Source of the DNA: Nitrospira sp.
GTDB taxonomy: Bacteria; Nitrospirota; Nitrospiria; Nitrospirales; Nitrospiraceae
Assembly: GCA_005116885.1 (NCBI GenBank)
Contig: SWDP01000012.1
Location: 1 to 44,206 of the forward strand
Direction of reading: 5' to 3'
Length of the DNA: 44,206 nt
Each line of letters begins with the position of its first letter. The stretch's first letter is position 1. This document shows positions 7,089 through 42,988 of this stretch, piece after piece. Position numbers and translations under genes: made by a program. The notes under the pieces are model-generated. The model did not search any database, was not told the origin of the DNA, and saw nothing but the letters and a program-made list of their open reading frames with translations.

Positions 7089-7454
7089 CTACTGCACGTC
7101 GACGGTGACGCTAGAGGTAGCCATGACAAGGTCATGGTCCTTGGTGGCGCCGGTCACAGTAACCTTGTGTGTCCCCTTGCTCAGGCTCTTCAGCGTACCG
7201 GCAAAACCCTTCTGATACTCTCCATCCACATATGCATGGACATGCGTCGCTTGTGAACCCTTCGTCAAATCGTACTTCACCTCAAAGGTGTCAGCGACTT
7301 TATCCCCGTCCTTTGGAGACGAAATCATCAACTTCGACCGGTCCTCGACCGGTGCTTTCGCTGGTTTATCCCCTGCGAAAGCTGGAACCACACTGAGACA
7401 GCCTGCCAGCGCAATCCCTAACCCCATCAACCCGATACGTCCCATCCTCTGCAT
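7089..7454 (-). CDS. Small secreted Ig-like (Big-type) domain protein, copy 1
   Basis: A 121-residue exported protein. The start at 7454 is chosen because GGAGG lies eight bases upstream and a signal peptide begins there (MQRMGRIGLMGLGIALAG, cleavage after FAG). The mature part is a single beta-sandwich-like domain: ISSPKDGDKVADTFEVKYDL, then HVHAYVDGEYQKGF, then a GTHKVTVTGATKDH strand and VTVDV at the end. It resembles the short domains that carry 'physical property/chaperone-like' annotations, but I cannot name a function. The protein at 7640-8005 is the same length and closely similar; a third, truncated copy lies at 31.3-31.6 kb. All three have the same upstream promoter block. Confidence 0.8.
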   Translation of the reverse strand: MQRMGRIGLMGLGIALAGCLSVVPAFAGDKPAKAPVEDRSKLMISSPKDGDKVADTFEVKYDLTKGSQATHVHAYVDGEYQKGFAGTLKSLSKGTHKVTVTGATKDHDLVMATSSVTVDVQ

Positions 7455-7565
7455 CACGACGACCTCCTTGTTTGAAGCAACTGAATGAACATTACCGCCT
7501 CCCATCCCCTCTCGGATACCCTCTAGTCTGATAACCAATCGTTCCCCGAGAAAGAATATTAAGAC

Positions 7566-7639: not shown

Positions 7640-8005
7640 TTATTCCACTTCGACGATAATGGTATGAGTGGCCGTCACAAGATCATGGTCCTTTGTGGCG
7701 CCGGTCACGGTGATCTTGTGATCTCCCTTGCTCAGGCCCTTGAACGTTCCAGAAAAACCCTTCTGGTACTGACCGTCCAGGTACACATGGGCATGCGTCG
7801 CTTGGGAGCCCTTCGTTAACTCGTACTTCAGCTCAAAACTGTCATCGACCTCATCTCCGTCCTTGGGAGTGGTAATCACAATCTTCGACCCGTCGTTGAT
7901 CGATGGTTTAGCCGGCTTATCCTCTGCAAAGACTGATACCCCTGCAAGCACGCTCACTAACACGATCCCTAATCCCATCAACCCAATACGCCCTATTGTC
8001 TGCAT
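7640..8005 (-). CDS. Small secreted Ig-like (Big-type) domain protein, copy 2
   Basis: Paralogue of the protein at 7089-7454 and of identical length (121 residues) when started at the ATG at 8005, five bases after GGAGG; an ATG at 8017 overlaps that ribosome-binding site. The signal peptide (MQTIGRIGLMGLGIVLVS, cleavage near VFA-ED) is followed by VITTPKDGDEVDDSFELKYE, HAHVYLDGQYQKGF and ITVTGATKDHDLV. Two near-identical genes in tandem, each with its own promoter, show a local duplication and suggest a dose-sensitive or conditionally expressed envelope protein. Function unknown. Confidence 0.8.
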   Translation of the reverse strand: MQTIGRIGLMGLGIVLVSVLAGVSVFAEDKPAKPSINDGSKIVITTPKDGDEVDDSFELKYELTKGSQATHAHVYLDGQYQKGFSGTFKGLSKGDHKITVTGATKDHDLVTATHTIIVEVE

Positions 8006-8112
8006 CGCGGCCTCCATGTTTGAACCAACTAAATAGATACCGTGGTTACCTTCCTCTGCAATACATCCTCTCGTCTGTTTTCCAGCCGTCCTCCTGTGGA
8101 AATTAGTTTGTC

Positions 8113-8141: not shown

Positions 8142-8212
8142 TCCGCACCTATTTGCTTCTGGAGGCCCTGCGCATTATTAATCCTTCCACGCTCGCGCCC
8201 TGTCCCTCTCTT

Positions 8213-8308
8213 GGAAGGGCACCCATGTTGGTCTATGTGCGGCCGTCGAACGAGGCCCTTCTGAGGGCGCGCGTTCCAGGAGCACAGGACCAATGTGGGT
8301 GCCCTTCC
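8213..8308. repeat. Dispersed core-and-arms repeat, copy A
   Basis: The outer arms 8213-8233 and 8288-8308 are complementary at 19 of 21 positions. Between them lies a core related to copies B and C: CGTCGAACGAGGCCC, the hairpin GCCCT-TCTG-AGGGC, then GCGCGTTCCAGGAGCACAG. The arms share no sequence with those of copies B and C. A degenerate extra end (GTGCGCGTTCCGCGAGCATG) follows at about 8321-8341. It lies upstream of two divergent genes. Confidence 0.75.
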
Positions 8309-8418
8309 CATTCTTCTTATCGTGCGCGTTCCGCGAGCATGAGGACGGCCAGGCAGCCCTTCCCTTTCCCCCCTCACTCCGATGTATGGTACGGTACAGA
8401 GGAACAGGGCACACAACG

Positions 8419-9363
8419 ATGACCATGCACGCACAATTTCCAGACGAGCAAAGCGTCGAAGGCGCCTTTACCAGGCAGCCGGATGTCTTTCAGGGCTGGG
8501 TGACTGCCAATGGGAGTTCCGGTTTTCCAGCAGCGAGCGGCCGTTACCATCTCTATGTTTCCTGGGCCTGTCCCTGGGCACATCGGACGATCATTGTGCG
8601 AAAGCTCAAGAAGCTCGAAGATGTCATCGGCATGACGGTTGTGGATCCAATCCGCGACGAGCGAGGCTGGGCGTTTCGCGAAGGGCCGGGGCATTCGCTC
8701 GATCCCAGCAACAACTTCAAATTCCTCAGCCAGGCCTACAAGGCCACCGATCCGAACTATCGGGGGCGATTCACTGTCCCTGTGTTGTGGGATACGGTGA
8801 CGAAACGTATCGTCACCAATTCCGACGACGACCTCATGCGCATGTTTAACGGCGAGTTCAATCGCTTCACCGAGAGCAAAATTGACTTGTATCAGGACGG
8901 CATCCGGAAAGAGATCGACGACCTCAGTACCTTCATCTACGAGAACGTGAACGACGGAGTCTATCGCGCCGGATTCGCCACATCGCAGCAGGCCTATGAA
9001 CGGGCCGTGCTGCGCCTCTTCGATGCGCTCGATCAACTTGAGACCAGGCTGGCGCGTCAACGCTATCTCTTCGGCTCACAATTCGTCGAAACCGATTGGC
9101 GCTTGTTCGTCACTCTCGTACGCTTCGACGCTGTCTACCACGGCCATTTCAAGTGCAACCTCCGGCGGATTGTCGACTACCCCAATCTCTTCGGCTATCT
9201 CAAAGACCTCTATCAGACCGACGGGATCGCCGAGACCGTGAACTTCGACCACATCAAGCGGCACTACTACATCACCCACGATGACATCAATCCGACTCGC
9301 ATCGTCCCCCTCGATCCCGACCAAGATCTTTCCATCCCCCACGGCCGCGAACATCTGCGATAA
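8419..9363 (+). CDS. Glutathionyl-hydroquinone reductase (Xi-class GST)
   Basis: A soluble enzyme of 314 residues in the YqjG/ECM4 family, which uses glutathione to reduce glutathionyl-hydroquinones. The thioredoxin-like N-terminal domain carries the catalytic cysteine in SWACPWAHR (Cys51). DPIRDERGWAF and the FTVPVLWDTVTKRIVTNSDD block (about residues 116-135) are family hallmarks, and the C-terminal helical GST domain includes ETDWRLFVTLVRFDAVYHGH. I use the ATG at 8419 because the family begins here; the open frame extends upstream into the repeat without a ribosome-binding site. Length is normal. A 13-bp stem downstream probably ends the transcript. Confidence 0.92.
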   Translation: MTMHAQFPDEQSVEGAFTRQPDVFQGWVTANGSSGFPAASGRYHLYVSWACPWAHRTIIVRKLKKLEDVIGMTVVDPIRDERGWAFREGPGHSLDPSNNFKFLSQAYKATDPNYRGRFTVPVLWDTVTKRIVTNSDDDLMRMFNGEFNRFTESKIDLYQDGIRKEIDDLSTFIYENVNDGVYRAGFATSQQAYERAVLRLFDALDQLETRLARQRYLFGSQFVETDWRLFVTLVRFDAVYHGHFKCNLRRIVDYPNLFGYLKDLYQTDGIAETVNFDHIKRHYYITHDDINPTRIVPLDPDQDLSIPHGREHLR

Positions 9364-13781: not shown

Positions 13782-13920
13782 CGAGCACGACCTGAGAACA
13801 ACAAGGTGGCGAACCCCTCCAACTTTCCCATACTTCTCTTAAAGGGAGTGGCCGAGGCTGCCTTTCACTGCGCGCATCGAACGATAAACATGCTCCTTCC
13901 AAGCTTGCTCGATTTCCCCT

Positions 13921-14019
13921 AGGAGGGTGGCCTGATTGGTCTCCCACTGCGCGCGTCCAACGAGGGCCTTCTGAGGCCGCGCGTTGCGCGAGCACAGGAG
14001 ACTAACAGGCCACCTTCCT
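13921..14019. repeat. Dispersed core-and-arms repeat, copy B
   Basis: Arms 13921-13944 and 13997-14019 pair over more than 20 bases with few mismatches. The core reads CACTGCGCGCGTCCAACGAG, hairpin GGCCT-TCTG-AGGCC, then GCGCGTTGCGCGAGCACAG. Upstream, a TCCTTCCAAGCTTGCTCG block is shared with copy C (and partly A), and a partial second core start CACTGCGCGCATCGAACGA lies at about 13872-13890. The 3' arm ends two bases before the zwf stop codon, between convergent genes. Confidence 0.8.
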
Positions 14020-14020
14020 C

Positions 14021-15484
14021 TCACCAGCCCAACGCCCACCGATGTCCATTCTTTTCCAGCAGCGCATCCGCTTCTCTCGGCCCCCAGCTCCCCGCGCTGT
14101 AGAAGTGGACGGAATGGTCTCCAGTCAATAACGGGGCATAGAGGCGCCACGCCGTTTCGGTGAAATCTGCGCTGACAAAGAGGGTCTGGTCGCCGATCAT
14201 CACGTCGCGGAGCAACGTCTCATAGGCTTCGGGGAGCTGGCCAAACGCTTGCTGATAGTCGAACTGCAATGCTCGGTCGCTCAGTTGGAACGGTCGTCCT
14301 GGACTCTTCACGGAAAAACAGAGCGAGAATCCTTCACTGGGCTGGAGCGTGATCAGCAACATATTGGGAGAAATACTGCCAGGATCGAGAGACCGAAATA
14401 CTTGAGTGGGCGCCTCACGAAAGGTCACCGCAATCTGGGTCATTTTACGAGGAAGGCGTTTTCCCGTCCTGAGATAAAAGGGCACGCCCTTCCATCGCCA
14501 ATTGTGAATCTCGACTTTCAGCGCCACATACGTTTCCGTGGTCGAATCCTCTGGAACCCCAGGTTCCTCACGATACCCGCGAATCGTCTGGTCGGCGACC
14601 TGCCAGGACGTGTACTGCCCAAACACAACATCGTGAGGAAGAATCGGCGCGATGGAATGTAGAACTTTTTGTTTTTCGTTCAAAATCGCAGCGGCATCGA
14701 ACGACACCGGCACTTCCATTGCCACCACCGTCATGAGTTGAGTGAGATGATTCTGTACCATGTCGCGAAGCGCTCCAGCCTGTTGGTAGTAGGCGCCTCG
14801 ATGCTCGACACCGATATCTTCTGCTACCGTAATCTGAACGTTCTCGATCGTGTCGCGTTTCCAGAGCGATTCAAAAATCGGGTTGGCGAAACGGAACGCC
14901 AAGAGATTCTGCACTGTCTCTTTGCCGAGGTAATGATCGATACGGTAGATCTGGGATTCTTCGATATAGTGATGCAGGGTCGTATTGAGATGCCGGGCTG
15001 AGTGAAAATCGTGGCCAAATGGTTTTTCGAACACGACACGGACCCACCCGTGGCTCTTGAGCAACCCCGTTTGGTCCAGCTTCTCCATCGCGAGAGGTAC
15101 AGTGTCCGGTGGCAACGCCAGGTAAAACACCCGGTTCTCCGGCATCGTGTGGGTACGCTCCAGCCGACGGATGTACAAGGCCAAGGCCTCATAATCTTGC
15201 AATCCCCCTTCATGCAAAGTCTGGTAGTGCAAGCACTCTTCGCACCAGGCGCGCAACTCCGTTTCATTGTGCCAACCTGCTTGCTCAAGACCTTCGAAGG
15301 CCCAGAGCCGAAATCCCTCTTCACCTATCTCTGGCAAGGCGGCTCCGACGATCAGCGTGTTGCGGGTTTCCAGGATTCCCTGGTCCCGCAAATGATAGAG
15401 CGCCGGCAGGAGCTTCCGACGCGTGAGATCGCCAGTCGCACCGATGATGACAAACACATGGGGTTCAACCTGATGCTCCGACAT
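14021..15484 (-). CDS. zwf: Glucose-6-phosphate 1-dehydrogenase
   Basis: Oxidises glucose-6-phosphate to 6-phosphogluconolactone, giving NADPH and entering the oxidative pentose phosphate path. The N-terminal Rossmann motif is IIGATGDLTRRKLLPALYHL (about residues 11-30). The substrate-binding and catalytic block is YRIDHYLGKETVQNLL with the active His and Lys, followed by FANPIFESLWKRD. The 487-residue length is typical. I start at the ATG at 15484, nine bases after GGAGG; the open frame extends further upstream without support. It follows the copper genes on the same strand, and its stop lies against repeat copy B. No 6-phosphogluconolactonase gene is adjacent. Confidence 0.95.
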   Translation of the reverse strand: MSEHQVEPHVFVIIGATGDLTRRKLLPALYHLRDQGILETRNTLIVGAALPEIGEEGFRLWAFEGLEQAGWHNETELRAWCEECLHYQTLHEGGLQDYEALALYIRRLERTHTMPENRVFYLALPPDTVPLAMEKLDQTGLLKSHGWVRVVFEKPFGHDFHSARHLNTTLHHYIEESQIYRIDHYLGKETVQNLLAFRFANPIFESLWKRDTIENVQITVAEDIGVEHRGAYYQQAGALRDMVQNHLTQLMTVVAMEVPVSFDAAAILNEKQKVLHSIAPILPHDVVFGQYTSWQVADQTIRGYREEPGVPEDSTTETYVALKVEIHNWRWKGVPFYLRTGKRLPRKMTQIAVTFREAPTQVFRSLDPGSISPNMLLITLQPSEGFSLCFSVKSPGRPFQLSDRALQFDYQQAFGQLPEAYETLLRDVMIGDQTLFVSADFTETAWRLYAPLLTGDHSVHFYSAGSWGPREADALLEKNGHRWALGW

Positions 15485-15586
15485 CTGCCGGGTCCTCCGT
15501 GGAAACGACCAACCCTCTGTGAGTCTACAATATTCATAGGCCGGTCTGCCCCAATCGGCAAGTTCGGCGAGAGACACCGGTCCTAT

Positions 15587-25397: not shown

Positions 25398-26855
25398 CTA
25401 TCGACTGAAGAGCTCGCTGTTCATCATAAGATGCACGGCGATACTGGCGGCATAGCCCAAGGCAATCGCCCATATCCATTTCAGGTGAGCCGAGAAGGTA
25501 TAGATCCCCCGGCTGTTCATCATAAGATGCACGGCGATACTGGCGGCATAGCCCAAGGCAATCGCCCATATCCATTTCAGGTGAGCCGAGAAGGTATAGA
25601 TCCCCCGGGCCTGCCCCATGAGGGCCACGCCCGCTGCCGACCCGATGGACAGCAATGATCCCCCGACACCGGTGGTCAATGTCACCAACAGCCATTGGCC
25701 GACACTCATATCCGGATTCATGCTCAGGACGGCAAACATGACGGGAATGTTGTCGATCACCGCCGAAAGAATCCCGACGAGTATATTCGCAGTCGTGGCT
25801 CCCAAATCCTTATAGAAGAAATCGGAGAGTGTGGCCAGATACCCCAGCGCGCCAAGACCGCCGACGCAGAGCATAATGCCGTAAAAGAACATGAGCGTAT
25901 CCCACTCCACACGCTTCATGCTGATGAACACATCGAACGGCTTGACGGCAGGCTTGAACAATTCGCGGCGACTCACGTCATTTTCGCCATCAAGAGCGGA
26001 AGTCTCTGTCCAGGTTGCCAGCTCCTTGCGCCGGAGAAAATACCCATACGATTTCAGCACGCCCAACCCCGTCATCATGCCGAGAAACGGGGGCATCTCA
26101 AGATAATGATGCATGAGCACCGTTCCGGCTATGGTGACGAAAAACAGGATCACGATGAGATAGCCGCCAGATTTCACCCGCACGTACTCTGTTCTGGCTG
26201 GCGGCTTCTCGTTCGGAATCGTGACGGAGATCAGTGCGGCCGGAATGAGCCAGTTCATGAGAGAGGGAACAAACAGCGCAAAAAAATCGCCGAAATGTAC
26301 CACACCTTTTTGCCAGACCATGAGGGTGGTGATGTCGCCAAAAGGACTAAACGCACCGCCTGCATTGGCAGCGACCACCACGTTGATGCAGGCCACGCTG
26401 ATGAATCGTGCGTTGCCCGCTCCCATGGCCATTACGACGGCGCCCATCACCAGCGCGGTCGTCAGATTATCTGCGACAGGAGAAATGAGAAACGCCAACA
26501 AGCCGGTCAGCCAGAACACGGCGCGCAAGGACAAGCGGAATGACACGAGACGTGCCCGCAACGCGGTAAAGACATTTCGCTCCACCATGGTATTGATGAA
26601 GGTCATCGCGGAGAGAAGAAACAGCAGCAATTCGGCGTATTCCAGCAGGTTATGGCGCAGGATTTCGGCGACGGCATGGGATCGATCTTGAGACGCATAC
26701 GCAATCGCCGTCAGAATCCAGATCACACCTGCCGCCACCATGACAGGCTTCGATTTCCGCAGGTCAAGATTCTCCTCGACAATGACCAACACATATGCAG
26801 CCAGAAACACCGCGACTGCCACGTAGCCTATCCAATGTTCCGTAAAGCTCAACAT
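25398..26855 (-). CDS. nhaD: NhaD-type Na+/H+ antiporter with a duplicated C-terminal segment
   Basis: A polytopic sodium/proton antiporter of the ion-transporter superfamily. Family blocks are FLISPVADNLTTALVMGAVV and ANAGGAFSPFGDITTLMVWQ (both near conserved Asp residues), and FGILSAVIDNIPVMF-like sequence with the Asp-Asn pair. GGAAGG precedes the ATG at 26855. The 485-residue ORF contains a perfect in-frame repeat of 32 residues at its end (RGIYTFSAHLKWIWAIALGY, then AASIAVHLMMNS, twice). Removing one copy gives 453 residues, close to normal for NhaD. The extra copy would add a membrane helix and invert the C terminus, so it may harm function or be an assembly error. Confidence 0.88.
   Translation of the reverse strand: MLSFTEHWIGYVAVAVFLAAYVLVIVEENLDLRKSKPVMVAAGVIWILTAIAYASQDRSHAVAEILRHNLLEYAELLLFLLSAMTFINTMVERNVFTALRARLVSFRLSLRAVFWLTGLLAFLISPVADNLTTALVMGAVVMAMGAGNARFISVACINVVVAANAGGAFSPFGDITTLMVWQKGVVHFGDFFALFVPSLMNWLIPAALISVTIPNEKPPARTEYVRVKSGGYLIVILFFVTIAGTVLMHHYLEMPPFLGMMTGLGVLKSYGYFLRRKELATWTETSALDGENDVSRRELFKPAVKPFDVFISMKRVEWDTLMFFYGIMLCVGGLGALGYLATLSDFFYKDLGATTANILVGILSAVIDNIPVMFAVLSMNPDMSVGQWLLVTLTTGVGGSLLSIGSAAGVALMGQARGIYTFSAHLKWIWAIALGYAASIAVHLMMNSRGIYTFSAHLKWIWAIALGYAASIAVHLMMNSELFSR
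25416..25608. repeat. Perfect tandem duplication, 96-base period, inside nhaD
   Basis: Bases 25416-25512 and 25512-25608 are identical over 97 positions with a period of 96, so the reading frame is kept. The lack of any difference between the copies means a very recent event or an artefact. Confidence 0.95.
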
Positions 26856-30347: not shown

Positions 30348-31345
30348 GCCTGACCGCCTGTGGTCGTGCGCGCGTCTCGCACCCCCGTTTGGCGGGCGAT
30401 GCGGGCTCGTTGCCGCATCCGAGCTGCATCCATCAGCATACGCCCAGCCCAGCGGTAGACGTTAAACTCCTGCACAATGTCGCGCATACTACGCATACGC
30501 GCCCGTTGTTCGCTTGGGGACATGGTCAGGGCCACATGCAAAGCGGCCGCACACTGATCGATGTTGTACGGATTGATCATCAGCGCCTCGGGTAATTCAG
30601 CCGCGGCGCCGGTGAATTGGCTGAGGATCAACACACCTTGCTCATCATCCCGCGCAGCGACGAATTCTTTCGCCACGAGATTCATGCCGTCATGCAGACT
30701 GCTGACGATGCAGAAGTCGACCCCTCGATAATGCGTCGCGATCTCTTGGGGATCGTGGTGTTCGATCCGGAGAGAAATCGGCTGATATCCCTCTCGCCCA
30801 AATCGTTGATTGATGCGTTCGGCCGACGCACGTACTTGCTGCGTGAGCTGCTGATATTGTTCGATCTTGGAGCGGCTGGGGGCGGCAATTTGGATGAAGG
30901 AGAATGTGCCGATCCATTCCGGCTGCAGCTCCAGAAGTCGTTCAACAGCAAGGAATCGCTCGAGAATACCCTTGGTATAATCCATTCGTTCGACGCCGAG
31001 GCCGACGCGCTGTGTGTGCGGGAGTCCGTTACTCGAACGAATATGTGTCCGACACGTCGGCACAGGCGGCTGTTCCTTGAGCACCCGACTAGGCCATTCA
31101 ATCGAAATCGGGTAATGGTTCACCGCGGTTAACTTGCCGCCGTATGAAATCGTGGAGCTGTCCCAATCGATCTTCGTTTCCAGGGCGCGATCCACCGTTT
31201 CGATGAAGTTGGTGCGATTGAAGCGCGTGTGAAACCCGAGAATGCTGCTTCCCAAGAGCCCTTCGAGAATTTCTCGATGCCACGGACAAATCGCGTAGCG
31301 CTCGGGATTAGGCCACGGAATGTGCCAAAACATAATGATCGTTGA
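30344..31345 (-). pseudogene. otsA: 3' part of a disrupted trehalose-6-phosphate synthase
   Basis: This is the C-terminal two thirds of OtsA, a GT20 glucosyltransferase that joins UDP-glucose to glucose-6-phosphate. Homology begins abruptly at IIMFWHIPWPNPE (E. coli OtsA has the matching HIPFP near residue 155) and then covers LLGSSILGFHT, VGLGVERMDYTKGILERFLA and NLVAKEFVAARDDEQGVLIL with the UDP-sugar site. The missing part held the glucose-6-phosphate pocket and the HDYH aspartate. Upstream sequence switches to a copy of the small secreted protein. The first 280 codons of the same gene lie further upstream (to 32804). The fragment could be translated from an internal start but should be inactive. 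Confidence 0.85.
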
Positions 31346-31607
31346 ACGCCCCGGAAAAACCCTTCTGATACTGACCGTCTAAGTACACATGGGCATGCGT
31401 CGCTTGGGAGCCCTTCGTCAACTCGTACTTCAGCTCAAAACTGTCGTCGACCTCTTCCCCGTCCTTGGGAGAGGTAATCACAATCTTCGATCCGTCCTCA
31501 GCTGGTGGTTTAGCCAGTTTATCCTCCGCAAAGAGTGGCGCGCCGGTAAGCACGCCCACTAACACGATCCCTAGTCCCATCAACCCGATCCGTCCCATCA
31601 TCTGCAT
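31346..31607 (-). pseudogene. Truncated third copy of the small secreted Ig-like protein
   Basis: Starting at 31607 after GGAGG, the signal peptide and first two thirds of the mature domain match the proteins at 7089-7454 and 7640-8005 (ITSPKDGEEVDDSFELKYEL, HAHVYLDGQYQKGFSG). After GFSGAFN the homology stops at about 31345 and the frame runs 12 residues into otsA sequence before a stop at 31308. The last 35 or so residues of the domain are lost. Its promoter (31715-31743) and leader are intact, so this block may now drive the otsA remnant and otsB. Confidence 0.85.
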
Positions 31608-31714
31608 CGCGGCCTCCATGTTTAAACCGACTAAATAGATACTGTGGTTAGCGTTCTCTGCGATACATCCTCTCGTCTGATTTCCAGCCGTCCTCCTGTG
31701 GAAAATATTGGGGC

Positions 31715-31743: not shown

Positions 31744-31811
31744 TCCGCACCTCCGGGCATTGAGCGACCCTGAGCGCAAATAATCCCTCCAAGCTCGCTC
31801 GTTCTCTCCTC

Positions 31812-31914
31812 AGAAGTGGGGGCTGATGGATCTTCCATTGCGCGCGTCCAACGAGGGCTTTCCGAGGCCGCGCGTTGCGCGAGCACAGAAGATCATCAGG
31901 CTCCATCCCCTTCT
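31812..31914. repeat. Dispersed core-and-arms repeat, copy C
   Basis: Arms 31812-31835 and 31888-31914 pair with small bulges. The core reads CATTGCGCGCGTCCAACGAG, hairpin GGCTT-TCCG-AGGCC, then GCGCGTTGCGCGAGCACAG, almost the same as copy B. The conserved upstream block TCCCTCCAAGCTCGCTCG lies about 20 bases before the 5' arm. It is part of the foreign segment that splits otsA. Confidence 0.8.
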
Positions 31915-31937
31915 CTGTTCTGCGGCAAGAAGAGCAT

Positions 31938-32804
31938 CTAGCCCCGCCCCGACCCTCTATCACCTTGGACCTCGATATCTTGCCCATTCCAATTGTGGAC
32001 GTAGGGCTCGCGATTGGACACGATGAGCACTTCGTCCCCGGCAAGATGGTCATGGAGAATGGCTTTCAATGTCGCCGGGGTCCAGCTCATCTGATGTTCA
32101 TCCCTCAAGCGTTTATCCGCTTCGAGATCATGAATGAGGGAACGAAGATCCTGAGCGACCGGCAGGAGGTCGGCGCCATGCCGCTGATCGCCAATCAGGG
32201 TAGCCAGCCCCTTACCACGGAGCAACGCTCGCACGCCTGTGACCCATCCACGCCAGCTCAGGTGCGCAACCAACACCGTCACAAGGGAGATCACCACGCC
32301 GATGATGGCAAATAGATAGAAGAGGTACCACTTCGTGTCGCTGCTTCGACGCTCAGCCCAGCTCATGTCTTGGACCAGCATGAGGCGCCCCCATGCGCGG
32401 CCATTTCCCTCTATGCCGATCGCAGAGACATGGACCGTCCCTTGGGGGAATGGCAGCAGAGCGGTCTTGCCGGCTACGACGGTGTCGGCTCCGTCACATG
32501 AAATCGAATCAGGGTAGGTCAACGTTTTGTAGACCAGCCTGCCCTCACGGCTGCAAAACCCAACGGCGAAGAGCCGTTCATCCTGAATGATTCGATTAAA
32601 ATAGTTGTGTAATTTCGTCTTGGATTCCGCCGCCAGGAGATCCACAAGGGGCGCTTCGACCGTGCGGCCGATGAGTTCCGACCGCATCTCGAGATCCCGC
32701 ACAAACCATTTCAACGTCAAGGTATCGACAAGGGGAATGACGGCATAGGCCAGGACGGCTAACACCAAGGCCAACGGCAGTAGAAATCGAAGCGATAAGC
32801 GCAT
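31938..32804 (-). pseudogene. otsA: 5' part of a sensor-domain/OtsA fusion gene
   Basis: The 288-residue product has a first membrane helix (residues 4-25), a periplasmic sensor region with FNRIIQDERLFAVGFCSREG, a second helix (WYLFYLFAIIGVVISLV, about 159-183) and a HAMP-like linker. It ends in VLIVSNREPYVHNWNGQDIE, which is the N-terminal strand and glycine-loop area of OtsA. Homology stops after residue 280 (about 31965), and eight unrelated residues lead to a stop. So the intact gene encoded a membrane-anchored trehalose-phosphate synthase fused to a sensor. About 130 residues between this part and the 3' part are missing, judged from E. coli OtsA spacing. Confidence 0.82.
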
Positions 32805-39101: not shown

Positions 39102-39230
39102 AGCAGGATGCTCAAAAGGTCCGTCCAGCAAGGCCGCAGGCGAGTCGAAACCGGAGACGTACCCTCTGGGGTACGTTGAGGATTTCGATGAGCTGAGAAC
39201 GCCGCTGGCGGACTTTTTCAGCATCCTGCT
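39102..39230. repeat. 129-bp palindromic repeat element
   Basis: The ends AGCAGGATGCT and AGCATCCTGCT are perfect inverted copies, arms continue imperfectly (AAAAGGTCCGTCC against GGCGGACTTTTT), and the centre is the hairpin GTACCC-TCTG-GGGTAC (39159-39174). I recall this type of long palindrome as dispersed in Nitrospira genomes, but only one copy is in the window. It abuts the formate channel stop codon and may act as its terminator. Confidence 0.75.
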
Positions 39231-40143: not shown

Positions 40144-42988
40144 TTATGTAATCAATTGTCGGCGCATGTGCCGCAGTTCCGCTTCATCTTCCGGGTCGAG
40201 TTCATCCCGTTCGATCGGTTCCACCCGCACGGCGGATACCTTGTACTCCGGACACTTTGAACTTTCATCCGCACTCGACGAGAGCAATGAATTCACCGTT
40301 GAGGCCGGAAAGTGAAAACTGGTGAAGAGATGCCCCGACATGACTCGTTCACTCCCCACGACGGGAAGCAATGCCTCGCCACGGGCACTCACCACACGAA
40401 CGACCTCACCGTCACGCAGCTGCAGCCTCTCCATATCGGCTGGATGCATTTCCAGCACATCGGTATCGACCAACTCGAGAATGTCTGTCCGGCGTGTTTG
40501 AGCCCCGCAGTTGTAATGTTGGAGAATGCGTCCAGTCGTCAGCACGAACGGATACTCCTTACTCGCCGCTTCTCCAGGCGGCAAGTACTCGATAGCAACA
40601 AAATGCGCCTTCCCCTTTGGGAATGTTTCCTGATGCATCAGTGCTGTGCCTTCGTGCATGGCAGTCGGCACAGGCCACTGTAAACCGGTATGCTGATCGA
40701 GCCGATCGTAGGATACACCGGCGAACATCGGTGTGAGCATCGCGATCTCGTCCATGATCTCTGAGGGATGCCGATAGGGCATAGGATAACCCATCCGGGT
40801 TGAGACTTCGCAGACCACACGCCAATCTGGAAGAATCCCGTGAGGCGGCTCTACGACTTTCCTGATCCGCTGAATACGACGTTCAAGATTGGTAAAGGTA
40901 CCGTCTTTTTCGAGGAACGATGCGCCGGGCAATACTAGATGTGCAAACTTCGTGGTCTCACAGAGAAACAGATCTTGCACCACGAGAAACTCCACCTGCT
41001 TCAGGGCCTCGTGCACCTTTTTCAAATTCGGATCGGTCTGTGCGACATCATAGCCGATGATCCAGAGCCCCTTGAGCCGACCCGCAATCGCCGCGTCCCA
41101 CATATCGGGTGTTTTCATGCCGCGCTTCGTGGGCAACGGACGGCCAGTGATGGCCTGATGCAGCGCTGCCAGCTTCGGGTCGTCCAAACTCTGGTAGCCG
41201 GCGAAGTAGGTCGGAAGGCAACCCATATCAGAAGCCCCCTGCACATTGTTTTGTCCACGCAAGGGATTGATGCCGGTGCCCGGCTTTCCGATGTTGCCGG
41301 TGGCCAAGGCGAGGTTGCAGAGCGCGATCACCCCCCTGCACATTGTTTTGTCCACGCAAGGGATTGATGCCGGTGCCCGGCTTTCCGATGTTGCCGGTGG
41401 CCAAGGCGAGGTTGCAGAGCGCGATCACCCCGTGACTGCCCCAGCGATGTTCCGTGACACCGAGACCATGGACACAGAACGCCGCACCGCTACTCCCATA
41501 GCGCCGAGCTGCCTGCGCGATGAGATGGGCCGGCACGCCGGTGATAACCTCAGCCGCTTCCGGCGTACAGTCCGAGACGGTCTTGAGCCAGTCTTCGACA
41601 CCCTCGGTCCTTGTCGCGATGAAGGCCCTATCGAGGAGCCCCTCCTTGACCAGAACATGGCCCATCGCATTGAGCAAAGCGACATTGCTGCCGGGTCGCA
41701 GTTGCAGATGCAGATCGGCCAGTCGCGCCAGTTCCGTGCGCCTGGGATCGATGACGATCAAGGGCACCCCTCGCCGATGCGCCTGTTTGATCTTGGCCCC
41801 GATCACGGGATGGGACTCCGTGGGGTTCGCCCCCACCACCATAATCAACTGAGTCAGATCGAGGTCCTGAATGGAATTGGTTGCCGCCGAAGCGCCGAGC
41901 GTGTCCATCATGCCGGTGACGGTTGCGCTATGACAGACACGGGCACAGTTGTCGATGTGGTTCGTGCCGATCACGCCGCGCATGAACTTGGCGAAGAGAT
42001 AATTTTCTTCGTTCGTGCCTCGGCTTGATGAAATGGTCGCGAGGGCATCCGGACCCTGCGTCTCCTTGATGCGCGTAACCTCCTGCGCCACCCGATCCAA
42101 TGCCGATTCCCAGGAAATCTCTTCCCAGTCATTGCCGTGTCGCAAAAGAGGGACTCGCAGACGATCCGGTGCATCGTTATAGGTCCAGCCGAACCGCCCC
42201 TTCATGCAGGCGTGTCCCCGATTTGACGGCCCATCGTCTGCCGGCATCATCTGAACCACTCGTCCATTCCGCACACCGGCATCGAACGCACAGCCTACGC
42301 CACAATAGGCGCAGGTCGTCCGCACCATGCGGGTAGGGACTCCTTGTTCAAGCACTGTGTTCTCAGTAAGCGCGCCGGTCGGACATTCCTTCACACAGGC
42401 GCCACACGACACACAGTTGGATGTGGCAAAGGCTGCCGCTTCACCCATAATTGGGCCGGCTCCCGCTGCCGGTCTTGCCGGAAATCCTCGCCCGATCATG
42501 GTCAAAGCATGGGTGCCTTGAATTTCATCGCAGGCTCGCACGCAGCGTGCGCAGGAGATGCAGGCTACATTGTCGAAGGTGAAAAACGGGTTCGAGTCGT
42601 CCCGCACGGAAGCGCGCTTGCTGCGCGCCCCATCGGGATACCGCACTCTATCCACGCCGCAGGCGAGCGCCAGTTCGCGCAATGGCCCCGACATCTCGCT
42701 GCCTTCAGGCTGTTCAGACACATAGAGTTCGACGATGTTATGGCGATGCCGCCTGAGCCGATCGCTCTCAGTGCGGACGACCATATCGGGTCTGACTGGA
42801 GTCGTGCAGGAGGCAGAAGTTCCGGACTGCCCCTCAATTTCGCAGATACAGAGTCGGCAGGAACCGAAGGGAGCGAGTTGATGCGAGACGCAGAGGCTGG
42901 GGACCGAAATCCCGGCCTTCCGCGCGGCCATATAAATGGTATCGCCCGGTTCGGCAGCGACAGAACGGCCATTGATGGTCAGATTCAT
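40144..42988 (-). pseudogene. fdhA: Formate dehydrogenase alpha subunit, frameshifted by a tandem duplication
   Basis: The catalytic subunit of a soluble NAD-linked molybdenum formate dehydrogenase. The N terminus has a 2Fe-2S domain (CRLCICEIEG), two 4Fe-4S clusters (CISCARCVRACDEI; CVSCGACVKECPTG) and the CAYCGVGCAF cluster motif before the molybdopterin domains. The Mo ligand is Cys, not selenocysteine (NCARVCHSATV). The C-terminal cofactor-binding block VLTTGRILQHYNCGAQTRRT is intact. At 41235-41431 a 97-base repeat shifts the frame: the first ORF ends at 41228 and the rest is read in 40144-41355. Removing 97 bases leaves exactly 916 codons, a normal full gene. It is followed by the channel gene. 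Confidence 0.92.
41235..41431. repeat. Perfect tandem duplication, 97-base period, inside fdhA
   Basis: Bases 41235-41334 and 41332-41431 are identical over 100 positions with a period of 97, not a multiple of three, which causes the frameshift. The coding content is the stretch IALCNLALATGNIGKPGTGI and NPLRGQNNVQG. Confidence 0.95.

Follow-up and report, generated by a model that had tools for sequence, protein, structure and literature searches.

The window, i.e. the whole stretch of 44,206 nucleotides that was analyzed, contains three copies (A, B and C) of a hairpin element in which the sequence of the stem is free and its pairing is kept. Most bacterial repeat families conserve letters, while this Nitrospira family conserves the fold of one strand, a preferred place and a polarity. 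The family is real, spread across its host family, conserved in structure, polar with respect to the strand and self-nesting; mobility is suggested by sequence comparison only. We give about an even chance to the view that A, B and C are small non-coding mobile elements of Nitrospiraceae, which act as a folded single strand. The hosts are environmentally central nitrifiers, and the family is present in nearly every sampled genome and nests in its own loops. It is a natural test of how single-strand folds are recognized and moved in chromosomes, and orthologous sites allow arms, cores and loops to be traced separately.

Fold, covariation and strand polarity

The covariance model placed three full hairpin elements on the + strand, where the original prediction had put them: copy A at 8212..8310 (core 8238-8284), copy B at 13922..14019 (core 13948-13994) and copy C at 31813..31910 (core 31839-31885). 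The predicted GC-rich shared core was recovered as the pattern CGCGTTGCGCGAGCACAG, which has three matches with up to three mismatches in the window, where 0.08 are expected. Copy A is a diverged member of this 47-nt core family; between copies B and C the identity is 84% over 90 nt. The folding energies of the + strand are -69.5, -68.7 and -53.8 kcal/mol for A, B and C respectively, and these hairpins of about 96-100 nt have z values of -9.0, -6.9 and -2.7 relative to shuffled sequences.

The element is a hairpin of ~99 nt, which consists of a conserved core of 47 nt and variable outer arms of ~22 bp. The core, with the consensus TGCGCGCRTCSAACGA-N15-GCGCGTTSCGCGAGCA, is the best-conserved part. 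The bases TC on its 5' side are unpaired; further features are a G-A mismatch and a 5-bp stem (CAACG/CGTTG or GAACG/CGTTC) with AAC/GTT inside; the apical stretch of 15 nt comes in a few types. Of 39 copies from the genome to which the window belongs (hereafter the own genome), which were found by BLAST with the spacing left free from 6 to 45, 38 have a core of 47 nt. A loop of 15 in 166 of 172 copies is a biased count, because the pattern used for fetching them fixes the core spacing.

A covariance model, the check proposed in the original prediction, was built from 62 copies, and covariation of the pairs was found. In the alignment A1 (62 of 73 copies, chosen for a pairing score of at least 20 and for diverse left arms) double changes occur at 29 of 34 pairs, and none of 500 shuffles reached the observed value on any of five covariation measures. 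The pairs of the core helix are intact in 98.3% of the alignment cells. The compensation that had been noticed in the inner hairpin of copy A is real and general: at column pair 37/65, 33 of the 62 aligned copies have C-G and 29 have G-C, and at 34/66 the counts are 42 for G-C and 15 for A-U. Because A1 was picked for pairing its arm statistics are inflated; sets of 155 and 284 copies are less selected.

The 155 copies were fetched by their core only, with the arms unused; they remained after 17 of 172 pattern matches had been dropped because of another loop length, N or short flanks. The two arms of a copy pair with a mean score of 31.3, compared to 17.4 with the arm of another copy and 13.5 for shuffled arms, and 144 of the 155 copies are above the 95th percentile of the shuffled arms. 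This upholds the predicted pairing within each copy. The further claim that the arms are unrelated between copies holds in part: the median identity of the left arm is only 0.42, compared to 0.81 for the core, but the arms fall into several recurring families, and the 84% identity of B and C was mentioned above. With a conserved centre and covarying arms the element is indeed the reverse of an ordinary MITE.

The pairing also has a strand polarity. In the 224 of 284 distinct copies whose arms could be aligned (the other 60 are below the alignment threshold) the mispairs on the + strand are 329 G-T versus 60 A-C (5.5 to 1). More G-T occurs in 157 copies and more A-C in 15, with a scoring that treats the two alike; in a smaller set the counts are 218 and 47. 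The + strand has a more stable fold than the - strand in 224 of 284 copies. G-T and A-C should be equally frequent unless mutation or selection is biased towards one strand; hence selection appears to act on the + strand in its folded, single-stranded form, be it RNA or DNA. The suggestion of a structure under pairing selection is therefore supported, now with a polarity.

Position behind genes and the leader

Genes were called with a home-made hexamer-based caller. The context set of the own genome comprised 82 of the 89 model matches (seven weakest or opposite-strand rows were omitted), one of them at a contig edge. Only 1 of 81 own sites overlaps a coding call; in the sets collected by regular expression the overlap is 1 of 76 for own copies, 3 of 150 for the named genomes and 4 of 38 for other copies of the genus. 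The 3' end of the right-hand gene faces the element at 60 of the 81 own sites, with a median gap of 19 nt, while the gaps to the left-hand gene have medians of 165-177 nt.

The same preference is evident when only gene ends within 40 nt of the hairpin are counted, omitting copies near contig ends (2 own, 19 from named relatives, 2 from others in the genus). Among own copies (n = 74) there are 36 gene 3' ends on the right and 4 on the left, with 7 and 6 for 5' ends. Named relatives (n = 131) have 62 and 2 for 3' ends and 3 and 10 for 5' ends; the other loci of the genus (n = 36) have 21 and 0, and 0 and 2, respectively. About half of the copies are directly 3' of a stop codon, and in these cases the + strand that folds is the one antisense to the gene. 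Neither this placement nor the antisense polarity was part of the original prediction; the same holds for the restriction to one family and the turnover at orthologous sites described below.

In the window, copy B is immediately 3' of the stop codon of the G6PD gene (14021-15577, -), and a gap of 27 nt separates copy C from the gene at 31938-32804 (-), on the side of its 3' end. Copy A is an exception and sits between two divergent genes, 7640-8017 (-) and 8419-9363 (+). A small gene is present in three copies in the window (7089-7538, 7640-8017 and 31308-31619), which have a conserved upstream region and, by eye, a signal-peptide-like start. Two of them adjoin copies A and C; the one at 31308-31619 has a shorter and different C-terminus. 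A Pfam search with the three genes gave no match. They were considered as a part of the elements and are not needed for them.

A function of the hairpin as intrinsic terminator of the gene in front was ruled out by T runs at no more than 1-2 of 38 own sites: in the sense of the gene, at least five T in the first 10 nt after the hairpin were found at one site, and TTTT near the hairpin end at two. Intrinsic terminators were also considered as insertion targets, as one site ends in CGTTTTT in some genomes; over the 38 own sites this idea was rejected. A second repeat, AGCAGGATGCTGAAAAAG...CTTTTTCAGCATCCTGCT, is present at 39102-39230 of the window and at many loci of the own genome, and has a terminator-like part, GGCC...GGCCTTTTT, in other loci. 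Judged by eye, about 11 of the 38 displayed hairpins next to genes have the left end of this repeat in front of them.

The block that the original prediction had seen upstream of the copies is a conserved leader of about AAATGATCCTTCCAAGCTCGCTCGTTTTCTCTTCA, which mostly ends 34-38 nt before the core. It was found within 140 nt upstream of 81 of 284 copies and downstream of 21; in the controls there were 4 in shuffled flanks and 3 for the reverse complement. On the + strand of the window the leader precedes copy B at 13885..13920 (TAAACATGCTCCTTCCAAGCTTGCTCG..., row L001) and copy C at 31778..31811 (row L004); before copy A an inspection by eye gave only a weak candidate, a diverged, leader-like stretch at 8176..8211. 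Many leaders contain ATAAATG or TATAAATG, which by eye loosely resemble a -10 box at a fixed distance. By-eye searches for a small reading frame in the leader or for pairing between leader and core gave no support for either.

The chief rival explanation is an element that works at the level of RNA. Transcripts of the + strand, antisense to the gene at its 3' end, would then contain the hairpin RNA as the functional unit, for example a stable antisense RNA or a block at which antisense transcripts on their way into the gene are stopped or cleaved; we regard this as possible, if doubtful. The G-T/A-C asymmetry and the more stable fold of the + strand are equally compatible with RNA and with single-stranded DNA, and the position and antisense polarity behind genes, together with the -10-like motifs in many leaders, are also in its favor. 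However, only 81 of 284 copies have the leader, and an RNA gene does not need elements that sit in each other's loops or swap their cores. It also speaks against this explanation that Rfam has no family at the gathering cut-off across the window, so that a known Rfam RNA family was dismissed; at a relaxed threshold the region of copy B matched only WT1-AS_4 at E 2.5.

Nesting and turnover at orthologous sites

Parts of further elements adjoin all three copies on the + strand, as judged by eye. The 5' half of a second element (left arm and core to ...CGAACGA) lies left of copy B at 13844..13884. Copy A is followed by the 3' half of another element (part of the apical loop, GCGCGTTCCGCGAGCA and right arm) at 8310..8360, and copy C by a 3'-half remnant (GTTCTGCGGCAAGAAG) at 31917..31932.

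In 17 nest candidates a complete element is flanked by two halves, the 5' half on its upstream side and the 3' half on its downstream side. Their outer arms pair with a mean score of 22.0, compared to 16.0 for swapped and 12.8 for shuffled arms. Nine of the 17 (scores 40, 40, 32, 32, 28, 28, 25, 23 and 20) are above the shuffled 95th percentile of 18.05 and eight, with scores of 18 or less, are not. In the best nests (L094, L198, L043, L121, L250, L065 and L181) a complete hairpin is inside the apical loop of another, and a broader search for paired halves added L260, L225 and others. The nested unit is a whole element, in which the hairpin is preceded by 30-50 nt of leader and followed by a short tail; in several nests the leader is the left part of the inner unit. 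The original prediction had spoken of an element that inserts into hairpins, and whole copies in apical loops, with outer arms that are still paired, agree with this. At the site of copy A in genome G004 a hairpin also appears, by eye, between the two halves of another hairpin; the automatic nest test chose a different outer half there and gave a score of 9. Short duplications at the target site were seen by eye in some cases (CCTTCT repeated in L260, TCA in G005 and G020), and none was evident in L094.

Halves with an arm score of at least 30 and at most 6 kb apart form 18 pairs, nine of them 38-186 nt and nine 263-1,667 nt apart. The possibility of an autonomous copy, whose loop would contain a gene, was considered and set aside; recurring arm families can yield half pairs by chance. 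The apical loops of L216, L218 and L225 are about 120-180 nt long and contain TCTGGTCTATCTGGTC-like repeats, which resemble a separate inverted repeat.

We also compared orthologous sites. The 3' end of the G6PD gene was located in 21 of 32 genomes of the genus, and 13 of these loci have a model match within about 50 nt. There is no model match at L210 and L219; by eye L214, L216, L218 and L225 have broken or long-looped elements and L221 has a half element, while the sequence of L226 stops short of the site. The own genome, G004 and G009 are 95-96% identical over the matched stretch and have different hairpins behind G6PD (L206, L207 and L208). A clean pair of filled and empty sites with matching flanks was not established in the comparison of the genus.

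A second locus, C1:353489 of the own genome, is present in 25 of the 32 genomes. In 23 of these 25 it shows AACGGGG, followed by different hairpins. The same initial arm type is found in seven genomes (G000, G009, G013, G018, G019, G026 and G027), and the remaining ones begin with several further arm types. The own genome and G009 have common arms and different cores; G002, G003, G004, G012, G022 and G025 have a hairpin based on AACGGGG with different middles. Own arms pair with a mean score of 24.6, compared to 20.4 for the arms of other genomes (n = 25), a modest difference from a test that covers the first 24 nt only, with one side lost in many genomes. The proposal that the element copies flanking sequence in inverted form is weak: AACGGGG does pair with its complement across the hairpin in several genomes, but an inherited resident hairpin explains this equally well. 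Of the earlier interpretation as a whole, the reverse MITE, the pairing selection and the insertion into hairpins thus stand, while inverted copying of flanks does not fare well.

The nesting, the exchange of cores with the arms kept and the different hairpins at the same site in relatives are points for mobility. Points against it are the inconsistent target-site duplications, the lack of a clean filled/empty pair, the eight nest candidates whose outer arms pair no better than the shuffled 95th percentile, and the lack of a mover among Y1 transposases, integron integrases and reverse transcriptases (see below). If the elements are mobile, they would be non-autonomous and moved by a recombinase or transposase acting in trans, and this putative mover would recognize the folded + strand at the core, as in integron attC sites or IS200/REP hairpins. 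We propose that the arms are locus-specific because the outermost hairpin would be an old resident, which diverges together with its gene through compensatory changes; newer copies would nest in the tip of this resident hairpin. Long paired arms at old resident sites are not needed for simple mobility and suggest an additional role at the level of the host.

In another explanation the elements are inactive REP/ERIC-like repeats, which are reshuffled solely by homologous recombination between cores, with correction by template switching keeping the stems complementary. Near-identical cores would supply the homology, and nested-core junctions that recur could be spread by core conversion. Chimeric elements whose two arms are unrelated (L122, L051, L125, L045 and L058, by eye) and the common arms with a different core in the own genome and G009 are in agreement with it. 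However, correction on a duplex template predicts no strand preference, while G-T exceeds A-C 5.5 to 1. Furthermore, the right ends behind stop codons (62 to 2) and the whole hairpins with leader inside loops are left unexplained. We consider this explanation improbable.

Distribution, candidate movers and known systems

With copy B as BLAST query, 50 matches with E up to 10 were obtained in the own genome, which comprises 3.19 Mb in 49 contigs. The covariance model gave 89 with E up to 0.1, three of which are A, B and C; a few are weak or at the same place on the opposite strand. All 32 genomes of the genus sample have model matches, 15 to at least 128 per genome, and so do 139 of 147 genomes of the Nitrospiraceae sample. 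With stricter filters 74 of 295 genomes of the phylum sample have matches and all 74 belong to this one family, which is Nitrospiraceae to judge from record titles; of the 221 without a match 20 were listed, including 5 Nitrospiraceae. The candidates scored per genome were the best 128 for the genus, the best 28 for the family and the best 13 for the phylum. A pattern scan of contigs resulted in at least 116 stretches, and the listed ones are from Nitrospira, Nitrospiraceae or Nitrospirae/Nitrospirota except for L080 and L087, which have no model match at 1e-5 and were taken as chance. We infer that the family is confined to Nitrospiraceae as far as tested.

None of three candidates is suited as the sole mover. 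The Y1 transposase (PF01797) is present in 96 of 147 Nitrospiraceae genomes, but a RAYT-type enzyme was rejected in this role because 14 of the 32 genus genomes have no match; G025, which is 99% complete, has no Y1 candidate, yet has 92 element matches. The integron integrase (TIGR02249) is above the cut-off in only 2 of 32 genomes (G008:C10:192882-193826, 464 bits; G014:C280:2834-3772, 463 bits), compared to elements in all 32. Weaker matches to tyrosine recombinases were found in all 32 genus genomes and in 13 of the 14 genomes used as controls. The reverse transcriptase (PF00078), as in a group II intron or retron, was found in 8 of 32 genus genomes, and in neither the own genome nor G025. 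A Nitrospiraceae recombinase, e.g. a chromosomal tyrosine recombinase, might also form an integron-like system across the chromosome without an integron integrase; it would recognize the AAC/GTT core in the antisense strand when this is folded, and would continually exchange and nest hairpins behind the stop codons of resident genes. We think this rather unlikely; if true, 3' regions would be shuffled while the genes stay put.

Several known systems resemble the family. The double-hairpin elements of fungal mitochondria are mobile hairpins that keep their structure while the stem sequence varies, a similar habit of fold over sequence in a different genetic system. REP-type sequences are recognized on one strand by related IS200/IS605 transposases. 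Integron attC sites directly follow cassette genes, and the Nitrospira elements are attC-like in that the hairpin strand is antisense to the preceding gene; this would agree with true attC sites dispersed over the chromosome. Such an origin is nevertheless very improbable and largely refuted by the distribution of the integrase. As described in PMC2727003, attC sites fold on the bottom strand with extra unpaired bases on one side, keep structure over sequence and conserve AAC/GTT, much as the Nitrospira elements do on their one-polarity strand. In attC, however, it is the base of the stem that has the conserved R boxes, with a variable tip, while here the base varies and the middle and tip are conserved. 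Also unlike attC, the Nitrospira elements are dispersed, and most hosts have no integron integrase above the cut-off.

Like the REP/BIME sequences in the part of PMC2817692 that deals with them, which are many short imperfect intergenic palindromes in mosaic, tandem and composite arrangements, the Nitrospira elements are many intergenic hairpins in mosaic, tandem and composite arrangements. They differ from REP in that a GTAG or GTGG head is missing from the base of the hairpin in the 62 copies of A1, and in their length of 99 nt, with a conserved core on a variable stem, compared to about 20-40 nt in the REP accounts available in part. Unlike with REP/RAYT, there are genomes with ~90 copies and no Y1 match. 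ERIC, Correia/NEMIS, RUP and CIR are dispersed intergenic long stem-loops of about 100-200 bp according to excerpts of PMC2229807, and share size range, place and form with the Nitrospira family. By the same excerpts most such MITE-like repeats have terminal inverted repeats, TA ends and target duplications, CIR being without a terminal repeat; in the Nitrospira family conservation is lowest in the outer arms, and a search for fixed termini gave none. Measured against these partial accounts, the family has principles in common with REP/RAYT, MITEs and attC, and from each of them it differs in a defining feature.

No paper describing the family was seen among the top-ranked ones listed from open PMC full text, a search outside subscription journals. 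A table row of RepRanger (PMC12306157, seen in excerpt) lists generic predicted REP candidates for Nitrospira moscoviensis, which may include pieces of this hairpin family; the excerpted text gives no Nitrospira consensus, core, arm covariation or polarity.

Finally, the window contains exact head-to-tail duplications of 96 and 97 nt at 25416-25607 and 41235-41428, inside long reading frames. They are possibly assembly artefacts or the result of recent slippage; 97 is not divisible by three.
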